DNA of 64,000 nucleotides from Sacculina carcini. Taxonomy: Eukaryota > Arthropoda > Thecostraca > Sacculinidae. Below, one piece after another: positions 22,283 through 48,165 of the stretch. A program made the translations under genes and the position numbers. Positions within the stretch are counted from its first letter, which is position 1. Every line of letters starts with the position of its first letter. The notes beneath the pieces are model-generated. The model did not search any database. It was given only the letters and a program-made list of their open reading frames with translations, and had not been told where the DNA came from. The stretch is taken from assembly GCA_916048095.2 (NCBI GenBank), contig OU696575.1:8935001-8999000 (forward strand), written 5' to 3'.

Positions 22283-23620
22283 TTTTTGTGTGTGATATTT
22301 GACGAAACATTGAATGTGTAACGTTACGTCACATTTGGAACATTTAGGCTTTACATTTTTCCACAAACACCGTCGTTGTGTTTCGCCCATGACAACATAG
22401 TGATCAATTCTGTCGAAACGTGAATATTCAGAAACACTGGGTGACAACCTTCTGCCAATTTTTTCCGAAGGTTTGAGGAGACAATTGACAATATCTCTCA
22501 GGAAATCCAACTGAGTCACTTTGTGGATTTTCCTATAGAGTAGCCATCCATTGACGGTCGATACATTCAAAAGGAACCGAAATACGCGAAAATTCCAAAC
22601 TTTTTTTCTTAACGACGTCCGGTATCGCTGAACTGATCGAAAAGGTCCATTCCACCCATGCCTTCAATGTACATCTTGATAATATTTGGCTGCGGTATTG
22701 TGATTACTTCTTTTTTCAATTTAGACCAGCGTTTACATTTACTCAACGACAGCGAGCTTTCATCCACCTTGTTCGTGGCGACTCTAACATCATTATTGTC
22801 GTTCCAAACACAAACTGCGATATTTGAGTTTTTTTCTTCAAAAAGCTGTGATTCTCCTCTTTCCTTTCTCTTCATGTCAGCTACCGGTAAATCTCTGACT
22901 CTGTCTTTTCGAATAGTACCAGTCAAGTCGACGTTTTCATTGGTGAACGACTGGAGAAGAGGTATAGTGGTAAAAGTTTATCAATATATCCATTGTTTCC
23001 ATCTGGTACAACTCCCCTTGCTAACTGGTTGACAAGAGATTCGCAGATTGGTTTCCCCACTTCAAACGCTGAGTTTTTTCCTTCATACATATTGAAATTT
23101 ACCAGAAATCCATCCCTCGAACATGGACACCAGAATTTGTAGCCGAGGCGAATGGGTTTTCCTCTGATAAATTGTTTCAGACTGTGGCGCCCGTAATATG
23201 GCTCCATGGCTTCATCAATAGCCCAGGTCATAGGAAGTGGTTGCGCCATTTCCATAAATGCACTGTTGAAGTGCTCGACAATACCCCTCACTTTATATAT
23301 TCTGTCATTGGCAGGTTTTCTTGAGTTGTCTGCAAAATGCAGACTTCGCACGATTTTTTTTAAATTGACATATATTCCGCATTGCATCACAGCCATGTTC
23401 CTCGTGTCCGCCCGCTTCGTCCAATAAAGTCGTCAGTTTGGAACTTGACTATATCCTGATAGGAGGAAAATTCCAAAGACCTGGTAGAGCTCATCTTTCG
23501 ATACATTCAATTCTCTGCTGAACTTCGTTCTGTGATATCGATTTGTCTCACACTGGATTAGTCCCTTTGAAAGAATCAGTTTGATATTCCCTTTGTTAAA
23601 ATATCGCTAAAATATAACAT
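22283..23620 (-). pseudogene. piggyBac-like transposase, frameshifted
   Basis: Read from about 23620: ETNRYHRTKFS, VFGIFLLSGYSQVP (family 'elk.FlGilll.Gy.k.P'), RLYWTK, IVRSLHFADN, then WAIDEAMEPYYGRHS (first catalytic Asp, DE) with KQFIRGKPIRLGYKFWCPC ('kqYmp.KP..wG.K.w'). A frameshifted second block follows near 22970, then TGTIRKDRVRDLP, DNNDVRV, IIKMYIEGMGGMDLFDQ ('YN..MGGVDl.D') and a C-terminal Cys-rich end, RRCLWKN..PKCSKCDVTLHIQCFVKYH. Frames break near 23430, 22925 and 22600. The N-terminus upstream of ETNRY was not found. All major blocks are present in order, so this was a full-length element that has decayed. Confidence 0.85.
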
Positions 23621-28077: not shown

Positions 28078-28210
28078 TTTCGTGGCGGATGTGTTTTCGT
28101 GGTGCTCGTGCTAGTTGCGTTTTAGTGATGTGTTTGCGCTTTCGTGGTGTGCTGCTGATTGTGATCAAGGATTTCGCGGCTAGGTGCGATTTTATGCGTG
28201 GCCCGACCCT

Positions 28211-28212
<2 letters not shown>

Positions 28213-28275: not shown

Positions 28276-28378
28276 CACCGGCCGGCGTCTCTGCACGTGG
28301 GTCGCGTGTTTGTATGCGCGTCTGCAGGGCTGGGCGTGCGTGCGTGCGTGAGAGAGAGAGTATGTGTGTGTGTGTGTG

Positions 28379-28450
28379 TTTTTTTTGTTTGTTTTTTTTA
28401 AACAAAAATATATTTAAAGGCCAAACACACAACGTATAACATACAGTGGG
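28379..28450 (-). other. 3' UTR and A-rich tail of the retrotransposon
   Basis: After the stop codon at 28451-28453 only about 50 bases remain before the tail, which on the minus strand reads TTTAAAAAAAACAAACAAAA and then CA repeats. Confidence 0.7.
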
Positions 28451-30448
28451 CTAGGTCATCGTTAAGGCTGCCGTGTTGCCGCGGGCTACCGCGAGGCTGA
28501 CCCGCTGTCGAAGCCAACATGTCTCCCGAGGCTCTCCGGACAATTCCGTTATACGTTGACCCAGTTCTTGTAGTAGCCGCAGAAGGGATGGTCCCATCAC
28601 GCCACTTGTCTCCACCGCCAGTGGCTCAAAGCGATAACGCTGCGCCAGCTCGGCATAGCGATCTCGCTTGCGCCGCTCAGCTGCTCTGGCGGCGGCTCCT
28701 GCTCTGGTGGCGCAATCGCGGAGTTGAGTAGCGCCGAACGTGTTGGTACACGTGGCGTCCCATACAAGTGATTTGTCGTTGCTGAACGGTGAGATGGTAA
28801 TGCCGTCGGGCCGTCTACCGTCACCGCGGTCGAGCCCGCAAGGCTCTAGCAAGGCTGGTACACCAGCCGCTGCCAACGCACGACGAATCACATCGTTGAG
28901 TGCCGCATGACGTGGCAGACGCCCGGGATCGCGGTGGCAGGACAGCTGGTGGTGGCCAAGACTGTCTATCATTGCTCCGCACCGGCACCTATGAGGCAAG
29001 CAGACGGTCGCTCCCAATCGCAAAGCAATGTTGACGCGCACCGCCTCGTCTGGTAGTAGTAGGCCTAGGCTCTCTACTGGTACGGCTCCCAGCCAAGCGG
29101 CACTGTGAGGTTCTGCTGCGGCAAGAAGGCGGGCGCGGTGCAGTTGATTGGCACGGCTGAGAAGTTCGTTGCTGCGATAGCGAGAGGCTAGCTCATCTAG
29201 TTGCCGCTGACGTGTGGGTAACGAGTCTTCAGCGTCGTGTACGCTCCCAACCCTGGCGGAAAATATCTTCTGTGCTTCGCCTAGCAGTGCTGGTCTGTCG
29301 TCGCAGGGGCGACGGGTGATCAGACTGACCAGCCTGCGAGTGGCAGACGCAGAGGATATGTAGGCCGGTAGCGCGATGTCCACCAGTCGTCTTACTCCGA
29401 TACCGCCGAGACGAACTGGGAGGGTGGCCTGCAACCAGCCGTCATCTGTCAGGTCGACATTGCACACACTGCAGATAGCGTCCCGCATCTTGGTATCGAT
29501 CAGTTCTAGCTGCTCGCTGTGCAAATACGTCTGTGATACCCTCATCAAGTAGGTGCAGCGGGGCACGGACGCATAGCGCGACAAAAAGAACAGAGCTGAA
29601 TGTCTTCCGATATTAGCTGTACGTTCTTGCATGCGGTCGACCACCTCTGCTGCTGCCTCTAAGGCCGCTGGCACTCCCTCGCGGCAAAGTGGTGCCCCAA
29701 GCACTATGAGTAAGGGGAGTGAGGTGTTCCGAGCGTTCGGGAGAAATGATTCGGTGACAGTTGGTGTCGCGCTTTCTGCTAGCCATGTAACCTCTGTCTT
29801 GGCTTCATTGACTATGAGGCCGAGGGTCTCCATAGCTGGGATGAGCCTGGCGATGTCGGCTGAGACAGTGTCGACCGGACCTGCCAACATACCATCGTCC
29901 AGATACCATGCGTTCAACGGAGAGCGCAACTGTCTGATCACTGGATCAATGGCTAAGGCAAATAACACTGGCCCGAGTGGGTCGCCCTGCTGCACGCCCC
30001 TGCATGACCAGATGACCTGATCGGCGACAAAGAGGGGCGTTGGCCTGCCGTAAGCCTGACGAAGCAAGGGCATGGCGGCGGGATATCGCCGTGAAGCCCC
30101 CTGAAGTACCACTTGTCGGTGCACCGAATTGAAGGCGTTCCTTAGGTCGACCTTCACCAGCACGCCGTGGTCGGCCGCCGAGACATACTCACGAACTGCA
30201 TGCACGGTGGCCTCGCATCCCAGTGGTGTGCCGACTCCTAACTGAGTGGGTCGTAACTCGCCCGCGACTGCCGTTAGGAGGCGGCCCGCAACAAGTTTGC
30301 AGGCTAGGCGGCGATAGGAGCTGCCGATTGCTATTGGGCGCATCCCTCCGCTCTTTTTCCTGATAGCGATCAGAGATGATCCGTAAAACGCATTCCTGGC
30401 TTGGTCTGGTATGCTACCTTCCACAGCGCAACGGCAGAGAGCGGTCAA
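28451..30448 (-). CDS. Reverse transcriptase plus restriction-like endonuclease half of ORF
   Basis: A 665-codon frame without internal stops. Residues 1-50 (SSLIAIRKKSGGMRPIAIG) are RT blocks 1-2. VDLRNAFNSV (Asp about 101) is motif A, VQQGDPLGPVLF (153-163) motif B, and WYLDDG (181-186) the catalytic box with both Asp present. After a thumb and linker, residues 487-504 form a finger C-x-C-x(8)-H-x4-C (RCRCGAMIDSLGHHQLSC). RRPDGITI (545-552) and LVWDATC (561-567) with AERRKRDRY (590-598) fit the PD-(D/E)XK restriction-like nuclease of R2-type elements. The true reading starts upstream in the other frame: the T6 run at 30481-30486 (A6 in the coding strand) marks a one-base shift joining it to the 31386-30454 frame. 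It would nick target DNA and prime reverse transcription. Possibly still intact in this half; clade not assignable by eye. Confidence 0.8.
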   Translation of the reverse strand: MTALCRCAVEGSIPDQARNAFYGSSLIAIRKKSGGMRPIAIGSSYRRLACKLVAGRLLTAVAGELRPTQLGVGTPLGCEATVHAVREYVSAADHGVLVKVDLRNAFNSVHRQVVLQGASRRYPAAMPLLRQAYGRPTPLFVADQVIWSCRGVQQGDPLGPVLFALAIDPVIRQLRSPLNAWYLDDGMLAGPVDTVSADIARLIPAMETLGLIVNEAKTEVTWLAESATPTVTESFLPNARNTSLPLLIVLGAPLCREGVPAALEAAAEVVDRMQERTANIGRHSALFFLSRYASVPRCTYLMRVSQTYLHSEQLELIDTKMRDAICSVCNVDLTDDGWLQATLPVRLGGIGVRRLVDIALPAYISSASATRRLVSLITRRPCDDRPALLGEAQKIFSARVGSVHDAEDSLPTRQRQLDELASRYRSNELLSRANQLHRARLLAAAEPHSAAWLGAVPVESLGLLLPDEAVRVNIALRLGATVCLPHRCRCGAMIDSLGHHQLSCHRDPGRLPRHAALNDVIRRALAAAGVPALLEPCGLDRGDGRRPDGITISPFSNDKSLVWDATCTNTFGATQLRDCATRAGAAARAAERRKRDRYAELAQRYRFEPLAVETSGVMGPSLLRLLQELGQRITELSGEPRETCWLRQRVSLAVARGNTAALTMT

Positions 30449-30453
30449 GGCGG

Positions 30454-31588
30454 TTAGCAGCTGACGACCGGCCTCGGCAGTTTTTTAGACGTCAGCTGAC
30501 GCAAGTGGAGCGGTCTCACTCCATCAAGACCGGCTGACGACCCCGGGAACATCGACTGGATGGCGGCGGCGACATCGTCTTCAGTGGGTGAAAGAGGCGT
30601 CTGGTGTTCGTACGCTATGGCGTCCAGGTCTTCATCGGGCGGTGCTGGTGGGTGCTTGTTGCTGAGTTCCATTAACGACTCAGCGTTGAGAGGAGCTACT
30701 GTGTCTGGCGTTGTTATTAGATGCAGGGCTCCTCTGACATCACCGTCAGCACATTTTGCCCGAATGCGACGAGCTACAAGGGCATTATTGAAGCCGGAGT
30801 CGTCGCTCTGGCTCGGCTTGTTGTTGGATTGATGCTCGTCCTGCTTGATGGCGTTTTTGGGAGCACTGAAACCGGTGTATGCGTAGGACAGCATACGCCA
30901 CCAGGACAGAGCTGTACGCTGTTCGACTGCAGCAGTGATGAGTTCTGCCAGTTCAGTGGCGGCTCGGTGCCTGTGTCTGCGAGCTATGTGCTGAGCGACG
31001 CGTGAGCGCTTTCTTAGCTGGGCTAGGGCCTCTGCCAGGTCATCCGGTGCCGTCTCGTCGACAGCAGGTTGTACCACGGCGCCATGCTGCAGCTCAGCAT
31101 TGATGCACGTATGACAGTGCCAAATAGGGAGTTCGCTGGCCTGAGCACGCGACAGCCCTACGCAGGTGAGATGAGCCGTGGCGCTGCAGCTGGAACAGCA
31201 GATGGTTCTCTTCCTGGCATTAGCCGTGTCGCAGACTTGGCAAGTTGACACAGCGGGTGTTCGAGCGTTGTCATCCGTGTTACCTGGCGGCCTCTGCGGA
31301 GTCATGCCCTCGGCGTGGCACTTGGACAACCGGCACGGTGGACAGTCGGCGCGTGTGGCTCTGTCGATGTGGCATTCGCCGCTCATCTTACAGGTGCCCG
31401 GTTCTTTTAACTGAAAACGTCGGAAAAACTCGCGGCAGGAGGGACAGGACCGAACGCCGTAGTTGAGTCCTATGCGAGAGGGTGTCGCCGCATACCCTGC
31501 ATGTGTGGTCGGACGGTGGCTTCGAGACAGTTGTCCTAGCCTTGGGGCTCCAGTGGTTAGGCATTATGTCTCGCGTTGGCTCTTCCAC
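30454..31588 (-). pseudogene. N-terminal half: nuclear-receptor-like C4 domain and PHD finger
   Basis: Two frames overlap. 31588-31480 gives MPNHWSPKARTTVSK then HTCRVCGDTL; one base later the second frame (31487-30454) gives GLNYGVRSCPSCREFFRRF, then TCKMSGECHID and RADCPPCRLSKCHAEGM. Spacing is C-x2-C, about 14, C-x2-C, 14, C-x5-C-x9-C-x2-C, with GVRSC..CREFFRR and CRL.KC...GM, which is the nuclear receptor DNA-binding domain pattern (C-x2-C-x13-C-x2-C-x15-C-x5-C-x9-C-x2-C). The same frame continues, without a break, into a PHD finger (STCQVC...CCSSC...H..C...WHCHTC, about 31248-31102), a basic Arg/His region, and SSAGLDGVRPLHLRQL, which precedes RT block 1. So the receptor-like domain is part of the retrotransposon ORF. 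One frameshift (43 bases between Cys codons 2 and 3) breaks it in this copy. Confidence 0.75.
31300..31502 (-). other. Nuclear-receptor-type zinc-finger domain (within retrotransposon ORF)
   Basis: All eight Cys of the double C4 module are present. The recognition helix reads CPSCREFFRRF (receptor consensus CEGCKGFFRRS). The second module ends CPPCRLSKCHAEGM (receptor consensus C..CR..KC...GM). There is no ligand-binding domain anywhere near. Inferred role: sequence-specific DNA binding for target choice. Confidence 0.8.
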
Positions 31589-32806
<1,218 letters not shown>

Positions 32807-33412: not shown

Positions 33413-33522
33413 GGACAGACAAGACCCCTTCGTGGGCGCTACCATTGATTTAGGCGGTCGAAGACCTACAACGCCAAGCGTCACGCCACAGCACCGACCA
33501 GGCCACCGGCACTACACCCTCG

Positions 33523-33954
33523 TTGCTCATGTTGCAGCGGATTGCAGCACTAAGCAGCGACAGCGAAGAAGACGTGGCAAGTACGTCATCGGCGTCTACG
33601 CTACCAACGGACGACGCAATACAGACCTGGACGCGCAGACTCAAGCAGTATTTGCGCGAAAACCGAACGAAAATAAAAAAGCGCGAAATTGCTGAGATAG
33701 AAGGAATTCTGCTCATCGGCCGGTATTTTGAGTATCTCACATCGGCCCACAAGCATTGGTTTAAACGCCGCATTGAGACTCTCTTGACAGCATCACTATA
33801 CGGCTGGGATACGGCATTGAAAGCGGAACGCACGCAGGAGGCCGGCAGCCTTCAGCTCAATATTCCTCGCGAGTTTTTGGAAAAGCCCAACATGTACGGC
33901 CACCGACCAGCGCCACCCGGGCCCGCTCCAATGTCCGCCACACCGGAGCGCTAG
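33523..33954 (+). pseudogene. Gag-like ORF
   Basis: 143 codons: an acidic Ser-rich start (SSDSEEDVASTSSAS), then a helical Lys/Arg-rich block (TWTRRLKQYLRENRTKIKKR, EIEGILLIGRYFEYL) and a Pro-rich end. It precedes an RT frame in the same direction and is helical and charged, so a structural (Gag) role is the best guess. The stop at 33952 is followed by an open stretch leading to the next frame after one shift. Confidence 0.35.
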
Positions 33955-34005
33955 CGCGAGGAAAGGCCCGAGGCCGACCTCCAGCACCTGCTCGACAAGG
34001 AGCAG

Positions 34006-34497
34006 GTGTGGCACCTCCTGCAGAATCGCGCACATAGGCTGCAGGAGGTGCCCATGCCGGCTCGGCCCGACACGACGTTCCTAGGAAGAGGAGAATATGC
34101 GCAGCTGCAGCCGATGGAGACACGTCATACTGACTGGTTAGAGACAGCCATCGAAGACACATTCAATGCAGCGGACTATCCGGCCATTGACATACTCGAG
34201 AATATTGACCTCGAAAGTACCGGTAGCGACGAGAACGCCGACGTCAACCTACACTACGGACGACACCTGTCGGCCCCATATGATATTATAGGTAATGAAC
34301 ACCTAATTTACGCAGATTCAGACTCTGGATCCGCCTCAGGTGCGGAATCCGACTCAGGATCGGAAGGCCTACCTCAGGCCAGCCGCATCGAATTCCTACG
34401 GGCTGGCGACACCCACTCGGACCGGCTGCCCTTGCGGCCACCGCAGTTCAATGGGGCACCATTCATGTGGCCCCATGAAGATCACGAACCATCATAG
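34006..34497 (+). pseudogene. Acidic linker ORF upstream of RT
   Basis: 163 codons, rich in Asp/Glu/Ser (ADSDSGSASGAESDSGSEG). It ends HEPS and two stops (34495-34500) exactly where the RT frame opens in a different phase, which could be a -1/+1 frameshift site or decay. No catalytic motif (protease DTG/DSG) recognised in a proper context. Confidence 0.35.
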
Positions 34498-35155
34498 TGA
34501 GCGACATACTGCGAAAAGGGGTCCGCACGAAGATTCCGAACAGCGCACGAGAGGAATGGCACCCGACACGGCCATCGGTCCAGATGGACGCCATCATGAA
34601 AGCATTACCGGAAGCTGACATTCTGCGGCCATCGACCAGTCGAAAGGGCCCGACATTTCGTATATTTACGATACCCAAGACGGATACCACAGCTCAGATA
34701 CTGTATGATCTTAAACCCTTAACACGCCACATCGCCTCGTACACGATAAGACTTCCCAGAGTGCAGGACGCCTTGGCAATTGCGGCCAAGCAACCAGATT
34801 GGAGTCCGGTTAAGTTTGACATGAGTAACGGGTTTTATCAGCTGCAAATCAGCCCAGGTCTGGCATCGTTCATGCGAGTATCATACCGAGGGCAGTGCTA
34901 TGAGTGGACTCGGCTCCCCATGGGATTGGCAAATGCGCCCGCTATCATGCAGCGGGTGAGCTGGCCAACGCGTCCCCCCAACACTGCGTCCCCACGAAAG
35001 GCATCCCATATTTACATGATTTCTTTATCATGGGCCCGCCAGCAGTGTTGGCTACCATCCCGTCATACCTCGCGGCCTTGGGAATACACACAAAGGACAG
35101 CAAGTGCATATGGACGCCCACTCGGGGAATTGATTTTCTCGGCCTTCGTCTTTGA
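34494..35155 (+). pseudogene. Reverse transcriptase (DIRS/gypsy-type), catalytic Asp lost
   Basis: The frame gives SDILRKGVRTKIPNS, a strand FRIFTIPKTD...ILYDLKPLT (family 'R.I.DLRpLN'), KFDMSNGFYQLQISPGLASF (motif A with Asp), YEWTRLPMGLANAPAIMQRV (motif B, 'f.rLPfGL..AP..fq'), then after a frame change GIPYLHDFFI, where the YxDD box should be, and GIHTKDSKCIWTPTRGIDFLG ('KS.....i.fLG'). YLHD in place of YLDD removes the first catalytic Asp. No RNase H follows because the sequence switches to another element at 35155. Confidence 0.65.
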
Positions 35156-35880
35156 TTCAGATTGATATCGACACATGGATTGCAATGTGCGACAACCTTT
35201 TAGAGGATGCGGGAATCACTGTGCAGAGCACTATGTTGCGGAATGTGCTACCGAAATTATCGACATCACAAGTTCGTATTGTAAAGGACATGGCCACTGC
35301 GAAGACCATTCCCGATAACTGTTACACACCTTTGTGTAACCGCCTGCGTCGGCGTCTGCAGCTGACTTCGGCCGAGCGCTTGAGACGGCTGCTGAGCATT
35401 CCGGGTGAATTGGGTTCTCGCAAGCCTTCGCAACTGTAGGGCGACCTAGAGGCATTGTTTCCTAGTGACACCGGTCACGAGATTATCGTTGAATCCTTCC
35501 TCTCCCGGACGCCCGCAGCGCTGCAACTCATTTGCAGGGAATGGCTTCAGATTATGCCATTAGTGGAGGTAGATGTGTGAGCAGACGCACACTATCAGCC
35601 GGCTCAAGTAGTAGCAACGGCTCCCGACGGTGCATCGCAGAGACCCCCTCACCACCAAGAGCAGAGTCATCGGACGAAGATGAGTCGGTGGCGGTTTCAG
35701 CGGCGCGTAAGCACAAAAACCGGTCGGAATCCGCCCGGGGAGCGACGAGGAATTATCCGGTGCAATCATATTCAGAACCTGGTTCCTTCGTCAGTCACTG
35801 GTTGCATAGGCAGTGGAGTCCGGCGGCCCGCATGTGCACCGGTACGTGTTCGTTACGCGCTGACATGTCGGGAAACGCGC
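35155..35880 (+). pseudogene. Gypsy gag remnant
   Basis: The frame 35152-35439 reads DTWIAMCDNLLEDAGI, then PDNCYTPLCNRLRRRLQLTS and LRRLLSIPGELGSRKPSQL with a stop. This is the capsid-like region '..Y..LK..li.Rl..Se..rl..LL..eElGdr.PSQlLr'. Readthrough continues with FLSRTPAALQLI. A frame near 35800-35870 carries LHRQWSPAARMCTGTC, matching the 'vHR.fG..Ar.C..pC' stretch before the protease. The protease active site itself appears deleted. Confidence 0.7.
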
Positions 35881-36760
35881 ACGGCAGCCGGCAATAGTGG
35901 CGCTAACCTTGACCTCGGTCGATCTTACAACTTCAAATTAATTGTGGCAGCCGTTCCGTCACCCATACTCGGCGCAAGATTTTCCCAGAGAAATAGGTCT
36001 GGTGCTGGACTTGCGCAAAAAATGCCTCATTCACAGCGTTACGCACTTGTCAACACACGCCGGGAGTCTGACAAACCAGCCACATCCCGCGCTGGCACAC
36101 GTCAGTGCCGTTCAGGAGCTAGAAAGAGATAGTGCCGGTTTCCCCGACGTGCGATCGTCGGTTGAGTTTCTTCGGCTCTGTGCGCCTCCTATTGGATTTC
36201 CAGTGGTCAGGATGCCGGTGGTGGGACACCGGATCGAGACACGAAGTACCCCGGTGTACTCGCGGCCGCGGCGGTTAATGTCCGGCAAGCTGACAGCGGC
36301 AAAGAGAGAGCTGAACGACCTTCTAGAGTGTACAATTGTCGCCCCTTAGTCGTCGCAATGGGCCAGCCCCATTCATCTGGTACCGAAAGATGGTGGCAAA
36401 GCATATCACATGGTAGGGTGCTACGAACGGCTGAACGCCCTCACAACACCGGAAAGGGACCCTATCCCACATATACAATGATTTGCCAACCTTTTAAGCG
36501 GATTACAAGTGTTCAGCAAGCTGGATCTCGCCCGAGCATACGCACAAATTCCCGTGGTGAAACGGGACCAACCGAAGGCGGCGATTACGACACCACTCGG
36601 TCTGTACTATTATACGTGCATGCCTTTTGGTCTATCCAATGCGGCGCAAACATTTCAGCGCTTGATCGATTCGGTATTGCGAGGCATGCCAAGAGTTTAC
36701 GCGTACATTAACGACATTCTGGTGTATTCCCCTGACGCCGCGACACCGTAGGTTCAGTTA
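35881..36760 (+). pseudogene. Gypsy protease edge and reverse transcriptase
   Basis: VAAVPSPILGARF (end of protease, 'pILGaDFL'), then in the next frame LVLDLRKKCLIHSVT. RT follows: GHRIETRSTPVYSRPRRLM ('H.I.T...Pv..r.RRl'), QWASPIHLVPKDGGKAY, FSKLDLARAYAQIPV (motif A with Asp), CMPFGLSNAAQTFQRLID (motif B) and VYAYINDILVYS at about 36698-36733. The catalytic box reads YIND where active enzymes have Y(I/L)DD, so the first Asp is Asn. Confidence 0.8.
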
Positions 36761-37470
36761 TCCGTAGGCTACAGTTCCTCCGGCAGGAGATATCGCCTGA
36801 CGGAATACGCCCTCTCCCCGACAGACCTTTGCGCCATGCCGCAACCATGACACGTGACAGAGTGCCGCCGCTTCATAGGCATGATAAATTTCTTTCATCG
36901 GTTCGTCAAGGGCTGGCCGCGAAACTGCATCCGCTGCACGCTACAATTCAGAGGCTGTCCGGAATTTCGTTTGGGGCTCCGCACAAACGATCGCCTTCGC
37001 CGAGGCTAAGTCTGCGCTCGCCTCCGCCACGCAGCTGTTCTATTCGCGCGAGAACACTTCTACGCATGTGGTCTCGGACGCTTTGGACACATCAGTCGGA
37101 GCGGTCATAAAGCAGTGCCAAGACGGCAGGTGAGTCCCGCTGGCCTATCATTCCCGAGCCTTGTCGCCCCCGCAGGTGAAATGGAGCACGGGCGACAAGG
37201 GGCTGTACGCTATATTCAGTAATGTCAAACGTTTCAAGCACTTGCTCGAAGGACGCCCCGACCTCAGCCTACTTACCGACCATAAGCCTCTCGTTTTTGT
37301 ATTTATCAGCTCAACAGAAAAGTCACCACAGATGTAGCGCCAACTGGTGTACATAAGCGAATTTACGACAAACATCAGGCACGTGACAGGAGTCAAGAAT
37401 GCCGCCACCGACTATCTCAACCGATCATTCAACGTCTCACAGTCGACATGCACCACGGGCGAGTAGAGCG
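36761..37470 (+). pseudogene. Gypsy RNase H region
   Basis: Scattered frames: ISPDGIRPLPD, FIGMINFFHRFVKG ('FLGm.nfYRrFip'), STGDKGLYAIFSNVKRFKHL ('s..eke.lAi...v..f...l'), LTDHKPLVF ('tDHkpL'), NIRHVTGVKNAATDYLNRS ('i.hv.G..N.vaDaLSR'). All expected blocks are visible but in different phases. Confidence 0.75.
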
Positions 37471-38800
37471 ACGACCTGAAGAGATTAGCTATTGCTCAAG
37501 TAAACGACCCAGAAGTGGCAGCCCTGGCGAAGAGTACATCTCTGCTTGTCGAGATGCGTTCGATTGATGGCGTTCCCTCCGGCCTTCTTGTCTCCACCTC
37601 GACTGGTATTGATCAACCATTGGTACCAGGCAGCATGCAGAGGAAGGTGTTTGACACATTCCACAAACTGCACCATCCAAGCGCAAGGGCTACTCGTAAG
37701 TTGATTTCGGAGACGTACGTTTTCCAAAGGCTTTCGTCCAGAACGGCGAATTGGGCAAAATCGTGTGTAGAGTGCCAGCGGTGCAAGGTCACACGCCATC
37801 AACGTAAGCCACTCATTCGCCACCCGCTACCGACCATTAGGTTCGAGGCACTCCACGTGGACATTATAGGGCCGTTGCCGGACGTGAGTTGATTCAAGTA
37901 TTTATTCACGATCGAGCGATTCACGCGCTACCCCGAGGCAGTACCACTGCGCGACATAACGGCGTCAAGTTGCGCCCAAGGGCATCTAGGGTGGATATCG
38001 CGGTTCGGTCTTTGCTTGTGTATAACGTCCGATCGAGGCACACAGTTCGTTTCAGAACTCTGGAAGGAGCTCGACTATGCTCGACGTACAGTTGTCGACC
38101 ACGTGCGCGTACATGCCTCAGCAAAATGGCATTGTTGAGCGCATGCAATTAAAGGCGTCTCTCATGGCCGCCTTGAGGGACAACAACGAGTGACCATCCG
38201 CGTTGCCGGTGGTGCTGATGGGTCTCAGAGCAGCTCACAAGCCGGATCTCGGTTCATCGCCGGCGGAGCTGGTGTTTGGCGAGCTGTTTCGTCTAGCGGG
38301 TCAGTTTTTTCACAGTCGGCACATCGGCCTGCCACTGAGACCGCTCGTTATCTGACCACCACGATGTCACGTCTGCGTCCGGTTCCCACGGCTTGGCACA
38401 ACCGCTACGAGCATCACCGACCTTTCGTTTCTCCAGCGCTGACGGAAGCGTCACACATGTTCGTTCGAGTCGATGCCCATCGACCTCCACTGACGCCGCG
38501 TACCAGGGCCCGATTGCAGTGGTCAGTCGAGACGAGGTTTTTGTGACGACGGTTTTTGAAACGCGGTGGCCGCAGGGACACTGTGGCCGTCGACAGGCTC
38601 ATGCTGGCGTATTTGAACACAGCGGACGGTTCACCTTCGGCGACCGAGACAGCACCGGGGAAACAGTCTTCCCCGGAACGACAGCCAACGCCGGCAGCAC
38701 CGATAGAGGCATGTGACGTTCCAGCAAGACGCATTGTGTGGTCTCGCCGAAGCAGGAGAGGTCCACAATTCGCTTTCGTTAATTTTAATTGCTAATTGTG
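37471..38800 (+). pseudogene. Gypsy integrase
   Basis: The HHCC-type N-terminal finger HKLHHPSARATRKLI...CVECQRCK (about 37660-37790) is followed by RFEALHVDIIGPLPD (first core Asp), RYPEAVPLRDITA, ITSDRGTQFVSELWKELDY (second Asp, in a shifted frame near 38030) and PQQNGIVERMQL (Glu, near 38112). Then VVLMGLRAAHKPDLGSSPAELVFG, the usual post-core stretch. Basic C-terminal pieces run to about 38790. Core residues are all readable but stops at 37893, 38190 and later, plus frame changes, disable it. Confidence 0.8.
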
Positions 38801-46960: not shown

Positions 46961-46989
46961 CGAGGCCTGTCTAAAAAGTATCCGACCTT
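46961..46989 (+). repeat. mariner left terminal inverted repeat
   Basis: 29 bases identical to the inverse of 48208-48236. Confidence 0.95.
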
Positions 46990-47109
46990 TATTTTTCCGT
47001 GCGAAATAGAGACGATAGCGCGGCGCCACTCCGCACAACGAAGGAAGACAAATTCATGCGCATGCCTGAATTTACGCAACGTGTCTGTCGGATTACCGAT
47101 TCTCTCAAG

Positions 47110-48165
47110 ATGACTGAACGTGTTGAGCAAAGATACCGCATCAAATTTTGTCAAAAGCTTGGTGATTCCCAAAGCGAAACAATTCGTAAGATTCAGCAGG
47201 TGTTTGGAGAAGATGCAATGGGTGTAACACAAATTAAGGAGTGGTTCAACCGATTCAAAAGTGGCCGCGCATCAGCAGAGAGTGACCAGCGTTCTGGCAG
47301 GCCCCAAACTGCTCGGAGTGCAGCTGTTGTTGAGAGGGTGCGAAATTTGGTGATGGCAAATCGTCGCTCGACCGTGCGGGAGATTGTCCAAGAGGTTGGA
47401 GTGAGTAAAGATTCCGCACATGCAGTTTTGCGTGATAATTTGAACATGCACAGAGTGGCTGCGAAATTTATGCCCAGGTTGTTGTCGCCGGAACAAAAGG
47501 ACCTCCGTTTGCAAGCTGCACAGGTCCTTCTGGACACTGCCAACACTGATCCTCAGATTCTGAACACCGTGATAACTGGAGATGAGTCATGGGTGTACGG
47601 GTACGACCCAGAAACAAAAAGACAGTCGTCGCAATGGAAGCATCCCGAGTCTCCAAGGCCGAAAAAACCGCGACAGATACCAAGCAAAATGAAGGTGATG
47701 CTGACTGTCTTCTTTGATATTCGTGGAATTGTGCATCACGAATACGCACCGGAAAGACAAACAGTGACAAAGGAGTATTATCAACATGTTCTCCGGCGTC
47801 TCCGTGACGCAGTTCGGCGCAAAAGGCCACACATGTGGACGGCGAAAAATTGGCAACTGCATCACGACAACGCCCCTGCACACTCATCCCATTTGATCCA
47901 ACATTTTTTAACCAAACATGGAATTCCAGTCGTTCGCCATCCTCCCTACTCTCCAGACATGGCTCCTTGAGACTTCTGGCTATTTCCAAAATTGAAGACG
48001 CCACTGAAAGGATCCCGTTTTGAGACTAGAGAAGAGATAATGCGGAACGCGACAGCGACGCTGAACACCATTCCGAAAGAAGACTTCCAGAGCTGTTTCC
48101 AGCAGTGGAAGGATCGGTGGGTTAAGTGTGTGCAAGCACAAGGGGCCTACTTTGAAGGGGATTAG
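47110..48165 (+). pseudogene. mariner transposase with one premature stop
   Basis: ATG 47110 (MTERVEQRYRIKFCQKLGDS) to TAG 48163-48165, 351 codons, the normal mariner length. The N-terminal HTH region includes VTQIKEWFNRFKSGR and the DQRSGRP linker. KFMPRLLSPEQK takes the place of the family WVPH.L motif. Catalytic residues: D158 (VITGDESWVYGYDP), D253 (HHDNAPAHSS) and D288 (YSPDMAP, stop, DFWLFPKLK), the D-D34-D signature. TGA at 47968-47970 replaces the residue (codon 287) just before the third Asp, where relatives have Cys, so one nonsense change truncates the protein before its last catalytic residue. The frame is open on both sides. An upstream in-frame ATG at 46999 exists, but 47110 matches family starts. 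Confidence 0.93.

Follow-up and report, generated by a model that had tools for sequence, protein, structure and literature searches.

What is a nuclear-receptor-type DNA-binding domain doing in front of a reverse transcriptase (RT)? Receptor-type zinc fingers are usually seen as a mark of animal transcription factors, and the question is raised by a GC-rich block on the minus strand of a 64,000-nucleotide stretch of Sacculina carcini DNA (assembly GCA_916048095.2, contig OU696575.1, positions 8,935,001 to 8,999,000), the whole of which is here termed the window. The GC content of the block is 56.8%, higher than on the left (40.2%) and on the right (47.1%), and the block contains a broken open frame. 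Very probably it is a decayed copy of an R2-like retrotransposon lacking long terminal repeats (non-LTR), from a clade whose single protein carries a zf-C4 domain, a PHD finger, RT, a zinc knuckle and an endonuclease, and whose copies mostly reside in (AC)n tracts. The fusion is kept across seven families in one genome and in three public proteins.

A receptor-type finger in frame with reverse transcriptase

An earlier, sequence-only reading of this block had named on the minus strand a double C4 module, a PHD finger, RT with YLDD, a C-x-C-x8-H-x4-C finger and an RPDG...WDATC region, and all of these are present (Table 1). The frame 31563-30454 matches both zf-C4 and PHD in Pfam, and the frame 30484-28451 matches RVT_1. 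At E 8e-15 and 55.5 bits, where the cut-off is 21.1, the module is a true zf-C4 and not a non-specific cysteine-rich region. Compared with Protein Data Bank (PDB) sequences, the N-terminal frame gave 126 distinct matches (E up to 1), the strongest being to the androgen, retinoic acid and glucocorticoid receptors, and the best 60 of the 126 are nuclear receptors or ancestral receptor constructs.

Is the join peculiar to this copy? When the read-through protein of the window was searched against protein sequences, 35 matches resulted; a profile search gave 55, and 60 public proteins were examined for zf-C4. P0001 is 1045 aa long and 52% identical across 97% of the region; zf-C4 (4.4e-15), RVT_1 and the endonuclease region follow one another in it without a break, and its PHD cysteines align, yet Pfam reports no PHD there at E 0.01. 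In P0002 (1023 aa), zf-C4 (3.4e-8), PHD, RVT_1 and the endonuclease region all lie in one unbroken frame. P0046, from the porcelain crab Petrolisthes cinctipes, has zf-C4 (2.8e-11) and RVT_1 (1.9e-13); its PHD match does not reach the curated cut-off. P0028 (Chionoecetes) is 83% identical across 21% of the query; the 'SLACS' label that it bears is its source's name only. Viral contigs and plasmids yielded no relatives, and prokaryote genome contigs one RT at 32% identity. With residues 1-95 of P0001 as query, only P0001 itself was found among 14 candidates.

Within its own genome (264 Mb, 43 contigs) the element is far from solitary. A search with the RT frame, in which 66 of 2251 first-look candidates were scored, gave at least 70 matching rows; counted by eye, 40 of 70 stay open for 1000 aa or more with no stop inside, and in three of the 40 the frame is lengthened by N. 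Thirty-six copies were fetched and sorted into families by domain appearance and RT identity: family A, that of the window copy, is decayed, B and C have many open copies, D has two, and E, F and G one each. The zf-C4 profile matches 31 of the 36, from seven families, so that the module recurs in other copies here as in P0001, P0002 and P0046. The complete nine-cysteine pattern stands in one frame in 29 copies, two (the window copy and L041) show its second part only, and the five with neither part (L033, L038, L039, L050, L024) begin downstream of the domain. Open frames of at least 1000 aa were found in 20/36, all from families B-F; in these copies and in P0001 and P0002 the finger shares one frame with RT and is not a separate exon. 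Six frames of five families exceed the Pfam cut-off for zf-C4 (28.4-36.8 bits vs 21.1), and all six own-genome frames scanned contain RVT_1; the PHD match exceeds its own cut-off in four of them and falls short in L025 and L053. No ligand-binding domain was found by Pfam in P0001, P0002, P0046 or the six own-genome frames, though such a domain is absent from some nuclear receptors too.

Two frame breaks mark the window copy. A single shift had been proposed; the break before RT, in an A6 run at 30486-30481, is real, and the count falls short since a second break lies inside finger 1 near 31471, the first CxxC (CRVCGD) being in a third frame, 31594-31388. Neither is part of the element's design, because other copies are open there: finger 1 is read through in five family mates (L034-L037, L057), L034 runs as a single 493-aa frame from the finger into RT, and P0001 and P0002 are unbroken. 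Programmed frameshifting at the A6 run was considered and is rejected, other copies being open at that run. The proposed extent, 28451..31588, located the element correctly with limits that were too narrow, as the copy reaches about 28379-32109. Its 5′ edge is the start of homology with four family mates, directly after (AC)n, and its 3′ end follows an A-rich tail; the source contigs of P0001 and P0002 are 3725 and 3753 bp long.

The proteins with zf-C4 form one clade in trees built from RT to the C-terminus, with support by the Shimodaira–Hasegawa-like approximate likelihood ratio test (SH-aLRT) of 100 in a quick tree of 52 rows, and support of 100/100 in a careful tree of 37 rows and again in a careful one of 33 (made up of the window copy, ten rows from its own genome and 22 from public proteins). 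In the last, the 14 rows with zf-C4 and the seven without it need one change, 12 rows not being counted. In the sister clade (support 90, 89/88 and 95/92 in the trees of 52, 37 and 33 rows) PHD is present and zf-C4 absent. Read most simply, these trees suggest that zf-C4 was gained once by the ancestor of its clade; alternatively, the sister line may have lost it once. With the zf-C4-free sister protein P0013 as query, the own genome yielded 60 matches, 44 candidates being scored; the matches are 44-50% identical, or 31-36% in the case of pieces, and lie largely in the same places as the RT-frame matches. Sister-clade elements (e.g., P0009, P0011, P0013, P0037, P0038, P0039, P0042) are of the same RT and endonuclease line and have an N-terminal PHD; they differ from the window element in having no zf-C4, and nine have a ubiquitin protease domain in precomputed Pfam.

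Those nine proteins are P0014, P0015, P0018, P0019, P0029, P0032, P0038, P0041 and P0045. In P0038 the domain (UCH, E 2.4e-65) is C-terminal, and P0029 and P0032, from the barnacle Amphibalanus, are annotated as ubiquitin hydrolases. The N-termini of P0012, P0015, P0016, P0018 and P0019 have, upstream of PHD, a motif ending in NPGP (variants of GDIELNPGP; GDIELTPGP in P0018), which we take to be 2A-like and which suggests a separated leader peptide. P0052, a distant RT relative (28% identity), has several ankyrin-type domains in precomputed Pfam.

Residence in AC repeats

Where do the copies sit? Behind the open reading frame (ORF) of most copies an A-rich tail passes into (AC)n, and in L037, L041 and L055 the repeat follows without a tail. 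For the count of 3′ flanks 33 of the 36 copies were used, leaving out L034 (no ORF end), L036 (cut off) and L022 (N). (AC)≥4 occurs on the coding strand within 150 bp downstream in 28 of them, against a background of 3.5% of 1187 200-bp windows elsewhere in the 64 kb. When the span is restricted to 40-200 bp, (AC)n is found in 27/32, (GT)n only in one (L048), and neither in four. Most copies thus reside in (AC)n, with their coding strand on the AC side.

The sequence-only reading had suggested that the element may home to receptor half-sites, and this finds no support. AGGTCA, expected 1.7 times in the 32 3′ junction windows, is in none of them, and it is in one of 18 5′ edges (L035; 0.7 expected); AGAACA is in one 3′ junction window and one 5′ edge, with no enrichment. 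The junctions of the window copy have neither, and show one degenerate RGKTSA, at 32293, where two are expected. With half-sites no more frequent than expected at junctions across the copies, they are rejected as the insertion target, and the copies are in (AC)n instead.

Constraint, role and origin of the finger

For comparison of the finger, 12 domains were picked by hand: three come from public proteins and nine from the own genome, families A and B supplying two apiece. They have in common nine columns that are all cysteine. Identity in zf-C4 among the window, P0001, P0002 and P0046 is 37-55%, and in the spacer behind it (window, P0001, P0002) 12-21% across 16-19 columns. Purifying selection on the C4 module, put forward earlier as a check, is indicated by pooled pairwise NG86 ratios of nonsynonymous to synonymous divergence (dN/dS) from eight open copies each of families B and C, figures that are descriptive because pairs are not independent: 0.14 and 0.38 for zf-C4, and 0.23 and 0.59 for RT. 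For PHD they are 0.06 and 0.14, a stronger constraint than on zf-C4. By these sequence comparisons zf-C4 is under constraint in both families.

What might be kept by such constraint? If R2 is a guide, the element protein would bind its own RNA, its endonuclease would cut one strand of (AC)n DNA, that with GT, and RT would start at this nick to copy the A-tailed RNA by target-primed reverse transcription. Copying would often stop early and leave 5′-truncated elements. The zf-C4 domain would be one nucleic-acid grip on the target tract, replacing the C2H2 and Myb fingers of R2 and dispensing with the classic reading of hexamers by the P-box. That grip is proposed because, as described in PMC13188248, the N-terminal portion of R2 bears most of the target-binding surface, and by this analogy the case for the finger helping to hold the complex on its target is about evenly balanced. 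The domain was likely captured from a host receptor, as far as sequence can tell. The fuller proposal, that an R2-like line took a receptor DNA-binding domain once and now uses it to park its integration machinery on (AC)n/(GT)n microsatellites, so that a receptor fold would read a simple repeat while its P-box is free to vary, is held tentatively, at a little under an even chance.

A number of observations weigh against one part or another of what is argued here, and they are best seen together. The zf-C4 profile of the element matches just three of the 60 public proteins (P0001, P0002, P0046). The remainder are outside the clade or start downstream of zf-C4, except for P0005, which is inside the clade and has 68 residues before its PHD with no zf-C4 match. 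P0003, P0004, P0006, P0036 and P0044 start at, or in the last residues of, the domain, and start choice or broken upstream frames may account for this. L034 and L036 have a 500 bp outer flank in common at 96%, and so are one insertion counted twice. L041, an open copy, is without the first cysteine pair, so the finger may be dispensable for some insertions. As for the target, DNA at least 400 bp outside the elements is also AC-rich (22 of 76 windows), a rate against which the 3′ excess of (AC)n stands (binomial 1e-10). Five of the 33 copies are without clean 3′ (AC)n: L048 has (GT)n, L049 none, and L024, L030 and L044 have (ATAC)n or degenerate AC, which may reflect target tolerance or later decay. 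In the finger itself, dN is above that of RT (0.032 vs 0.019 in family B; 0.027 vs 0.014 in C), and its dN/dS is below that of RT only because its dS is higher; family D, from one pair, gives a dN/dS of 0.59. P-boxes vary among families with a common target (CPSCREFFRR, CPACKIFFSR, CRACDVFWRR, CRACNVFYQR), which makes receptor-style reading of the DNA doubtful. The predicted structure is weak at zf-C4 (predicted local distance difference test, pLDDT, about 48-74 in the block), and the domain is outside the range of the fold matches.

Some of these observations fit another role. The finger may be kept for a different task, such as binding element RNA, multimerising, or docking on a host chromatin protein together with PHD, the choice of (AC)n then residing in the endonuclease or other parts. 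Variation of P-box residues at a constant target favours this, as do the greater constraint on the adjacent PHD and L041, which despite its missing cysteine pair is still an open copy next to AC-rich DNA. That the solved zf-C4 matches are, among those listed, nuclear receptors counts the other way, and on balance we think a different task possible and somewhat doubtful.

Need the domain derive from a receptor at all? An independently evolved double C4 treble clef could come to resemble one, and the loops of 12-15 and 13-16 residues are off the canonical pattern, own-genome families B-F score just 28-37 bits, and profile comparison gives no clear winner among receptor subfamilies as the source. 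Against such convergence, the profile match (E 3.3e-18 to NR5A2) spans both modules, the CRLxKCxxxGM end and the ninth cysteine, and the window and P0001 score 55-56 bits. Independent origin is accordingly regarded as improbable, and capture of a receptor domain is preferred.

Might the (AC)n tracts have grown from the A-rich tail after insertion and not be the target? Many tails have A and AC units before the tract, and the generation of microsatellites by RTE elements is the subject of PMC2887409. A 3′ tail, however, cannot seed what is seen at the other end. With 5′ edges placed after masking of simple repeats (families A-D), (AC)≥4 ends no more than 20 bp from the edge in 20 of 33 copies; among the other 13 edges, two coincide with the beginning of the fetched sequence and one falls in N. 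The 5′ truncations of L033, L038, L039 and L047 join (AC)n at internal points that differ from copy to copy. L048 alone among the copies examined is flanked by (GT)n on either side, as expected for reverse orientation. Because 5′ edges, internal truncation points and L048 all show the repeat, (AC)n is taken as the target, and growth from the tail is very unlikely. The two frame breaks of the window copy might hint at a false fusion, produced by a host receptor gene next door or by a chimeric assembly. This is refuted by the unbroken P0001 and P0002 and by 20/36 copies with at least 1000 open codons.

The window and known systems

Table 1. Features of the element copy and its flanks, in window coordinates
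Feature	Position	Strand	Basis or remark
(AC)53 microsatellite, 5′ side, taken as target	32110..32215	-	
Whole element copy, ~3731 bp, flanked by two (AC)n tracts	28379..32109	-	edges from family-mate homology and A-rich tail
5′ untranslated region	31565..32109	-	from 5′ edge to first Met of ORF
Nuclear-receptor-type zf-C4 DNA-binding domain	31300..31501	-	PF00105; finger 1 frame-broken near 31471
PHD finger	31105..31242	-	PF00628, E 5.4e-6
Second frame break, A6 run just upstream of RT	30481..30486	-	frame open at same place in L034
Reverse transcriptase, YLDD at 29894-29905	29786..30364	-	RVT_1, E 1.1e-15; best PDB sequence matches are R2 proteins
C-x-C...H-x3-4-C zinc knuckle	28937..28987	-	almost invariant in 12-row alignment
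Restriction-like endonuclease core, RPDG...WDATC	28748..28813	-	conserved in 12-row alignment
3′ untranslated region and A-rich tail	28379..28450	-	
(AC)8 microsatellite, 3′ side, taken as target	28363..28378	-	

No second copy of the element was seen in the window, nor any rRNA match. A stretch with core GCACCTAGCCGC, followed by AAATCC, stands after (AC)n downstream of the window copy (~28150-28212, minus strand), and a similar one is upstream of L034/L036; it is perhaps another repeat tied to AC tracts. Beside the element, at 32467-32536, are interstitial TTAGG-like repeats, which resemble arthropod telomere repeats. Adjoining it on the plus strand, at 33454-37892, is a broken element with an RVT_1-like piece (8.8e-7, just below cut-off) and an integrase zinc-binding domain (1.4e-11), probably a retroelement of LTR type. 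Further away are a Mariner/Mos1-type transposase (46975-47970, plus strand; Transposase_1, E 2.9e-19) and a DDE_Tnp_1_7 transposase remnant (22923-23432, minus strand; 7.7e-20), which we assume to be piggyBac-like.

In these mobile elements the receptor-type finger is conserved and under constraint. A tally of 'nuclear receptors' can therefore take in retrotransposons: P0046 is listed as 'Nuclear receptor domain-containing protein'. One genome offers many open, naturally varying versions of a single finger with a common target, so that the way in which a retrotransposon line alters its targeting domain can be tested directly, and a compact R2-like protein of ~1030 aa living in microsatellites is of interest for studies of targeted insertion. 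Full-text literature searches revealed, by title and abstract start, no non-LTR element with a receptor-type finger, Repbase and most subscription journals being outside their scope.

How, then, does the element compare with what is known? Its chromatin-type PHD within a non-LTR element has a counterpart in CR1-like elements, in which Kapitonov and Jurka reportedly found PHD in 2003; those elements have two ORFs, another type of endonuclease and no zf-C4. With nuclear receptors it has in common the double C4 treble clef, with eight zinc cysteines and a ninth, and it differs from them in having no ligand-binding domain by Pfam and in the fusion to RT and endonuclease. By target it is like Togen, of the NeSL clade in fish, whose (TG)n is the same dinucleotide repeat, a likeness that shows no kinship, and the description of Togen in PMC4640811 includes no receptor-type finger. 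The HERO clade, compared by description only, is likewise of restriction-like endonuclease (RLE) type with some microsatellite-specific families, and as described in PMC4640811 is without zf-C4. The RLE-type hallmarks are found in the element itself: a single ORF with RT, a knuckle and endonuclease downstream whose catalysis is predicted from sequence and model, 5′-truncated copies and an A-rich 3′ end. R2 (R2Bm, R2Tg) resembles the element in its one ORF, RT, zinc knuckle (of CX2-3C type as described in PMC5678591), restriction-like endonuclease and repeated target; in the predicted model some 700 C-terminal residues align with the R2 fold. At the N-terminus the two part company, R2 having CCHH/CCHC fingers and Myb as described in PMC13188248, in whose main text a term search found zero occurrences of 'nuclear receptor' and 'PHD'. 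Among Pfam matches of the element at E up to 0.01 there is no C2H2 or Myb family, and zf-C4 and PHD are there instead. The element RT, unlike that of R2, has YLDD, and where R2 inserts into 28S rDNA the element resides in (AC)n.

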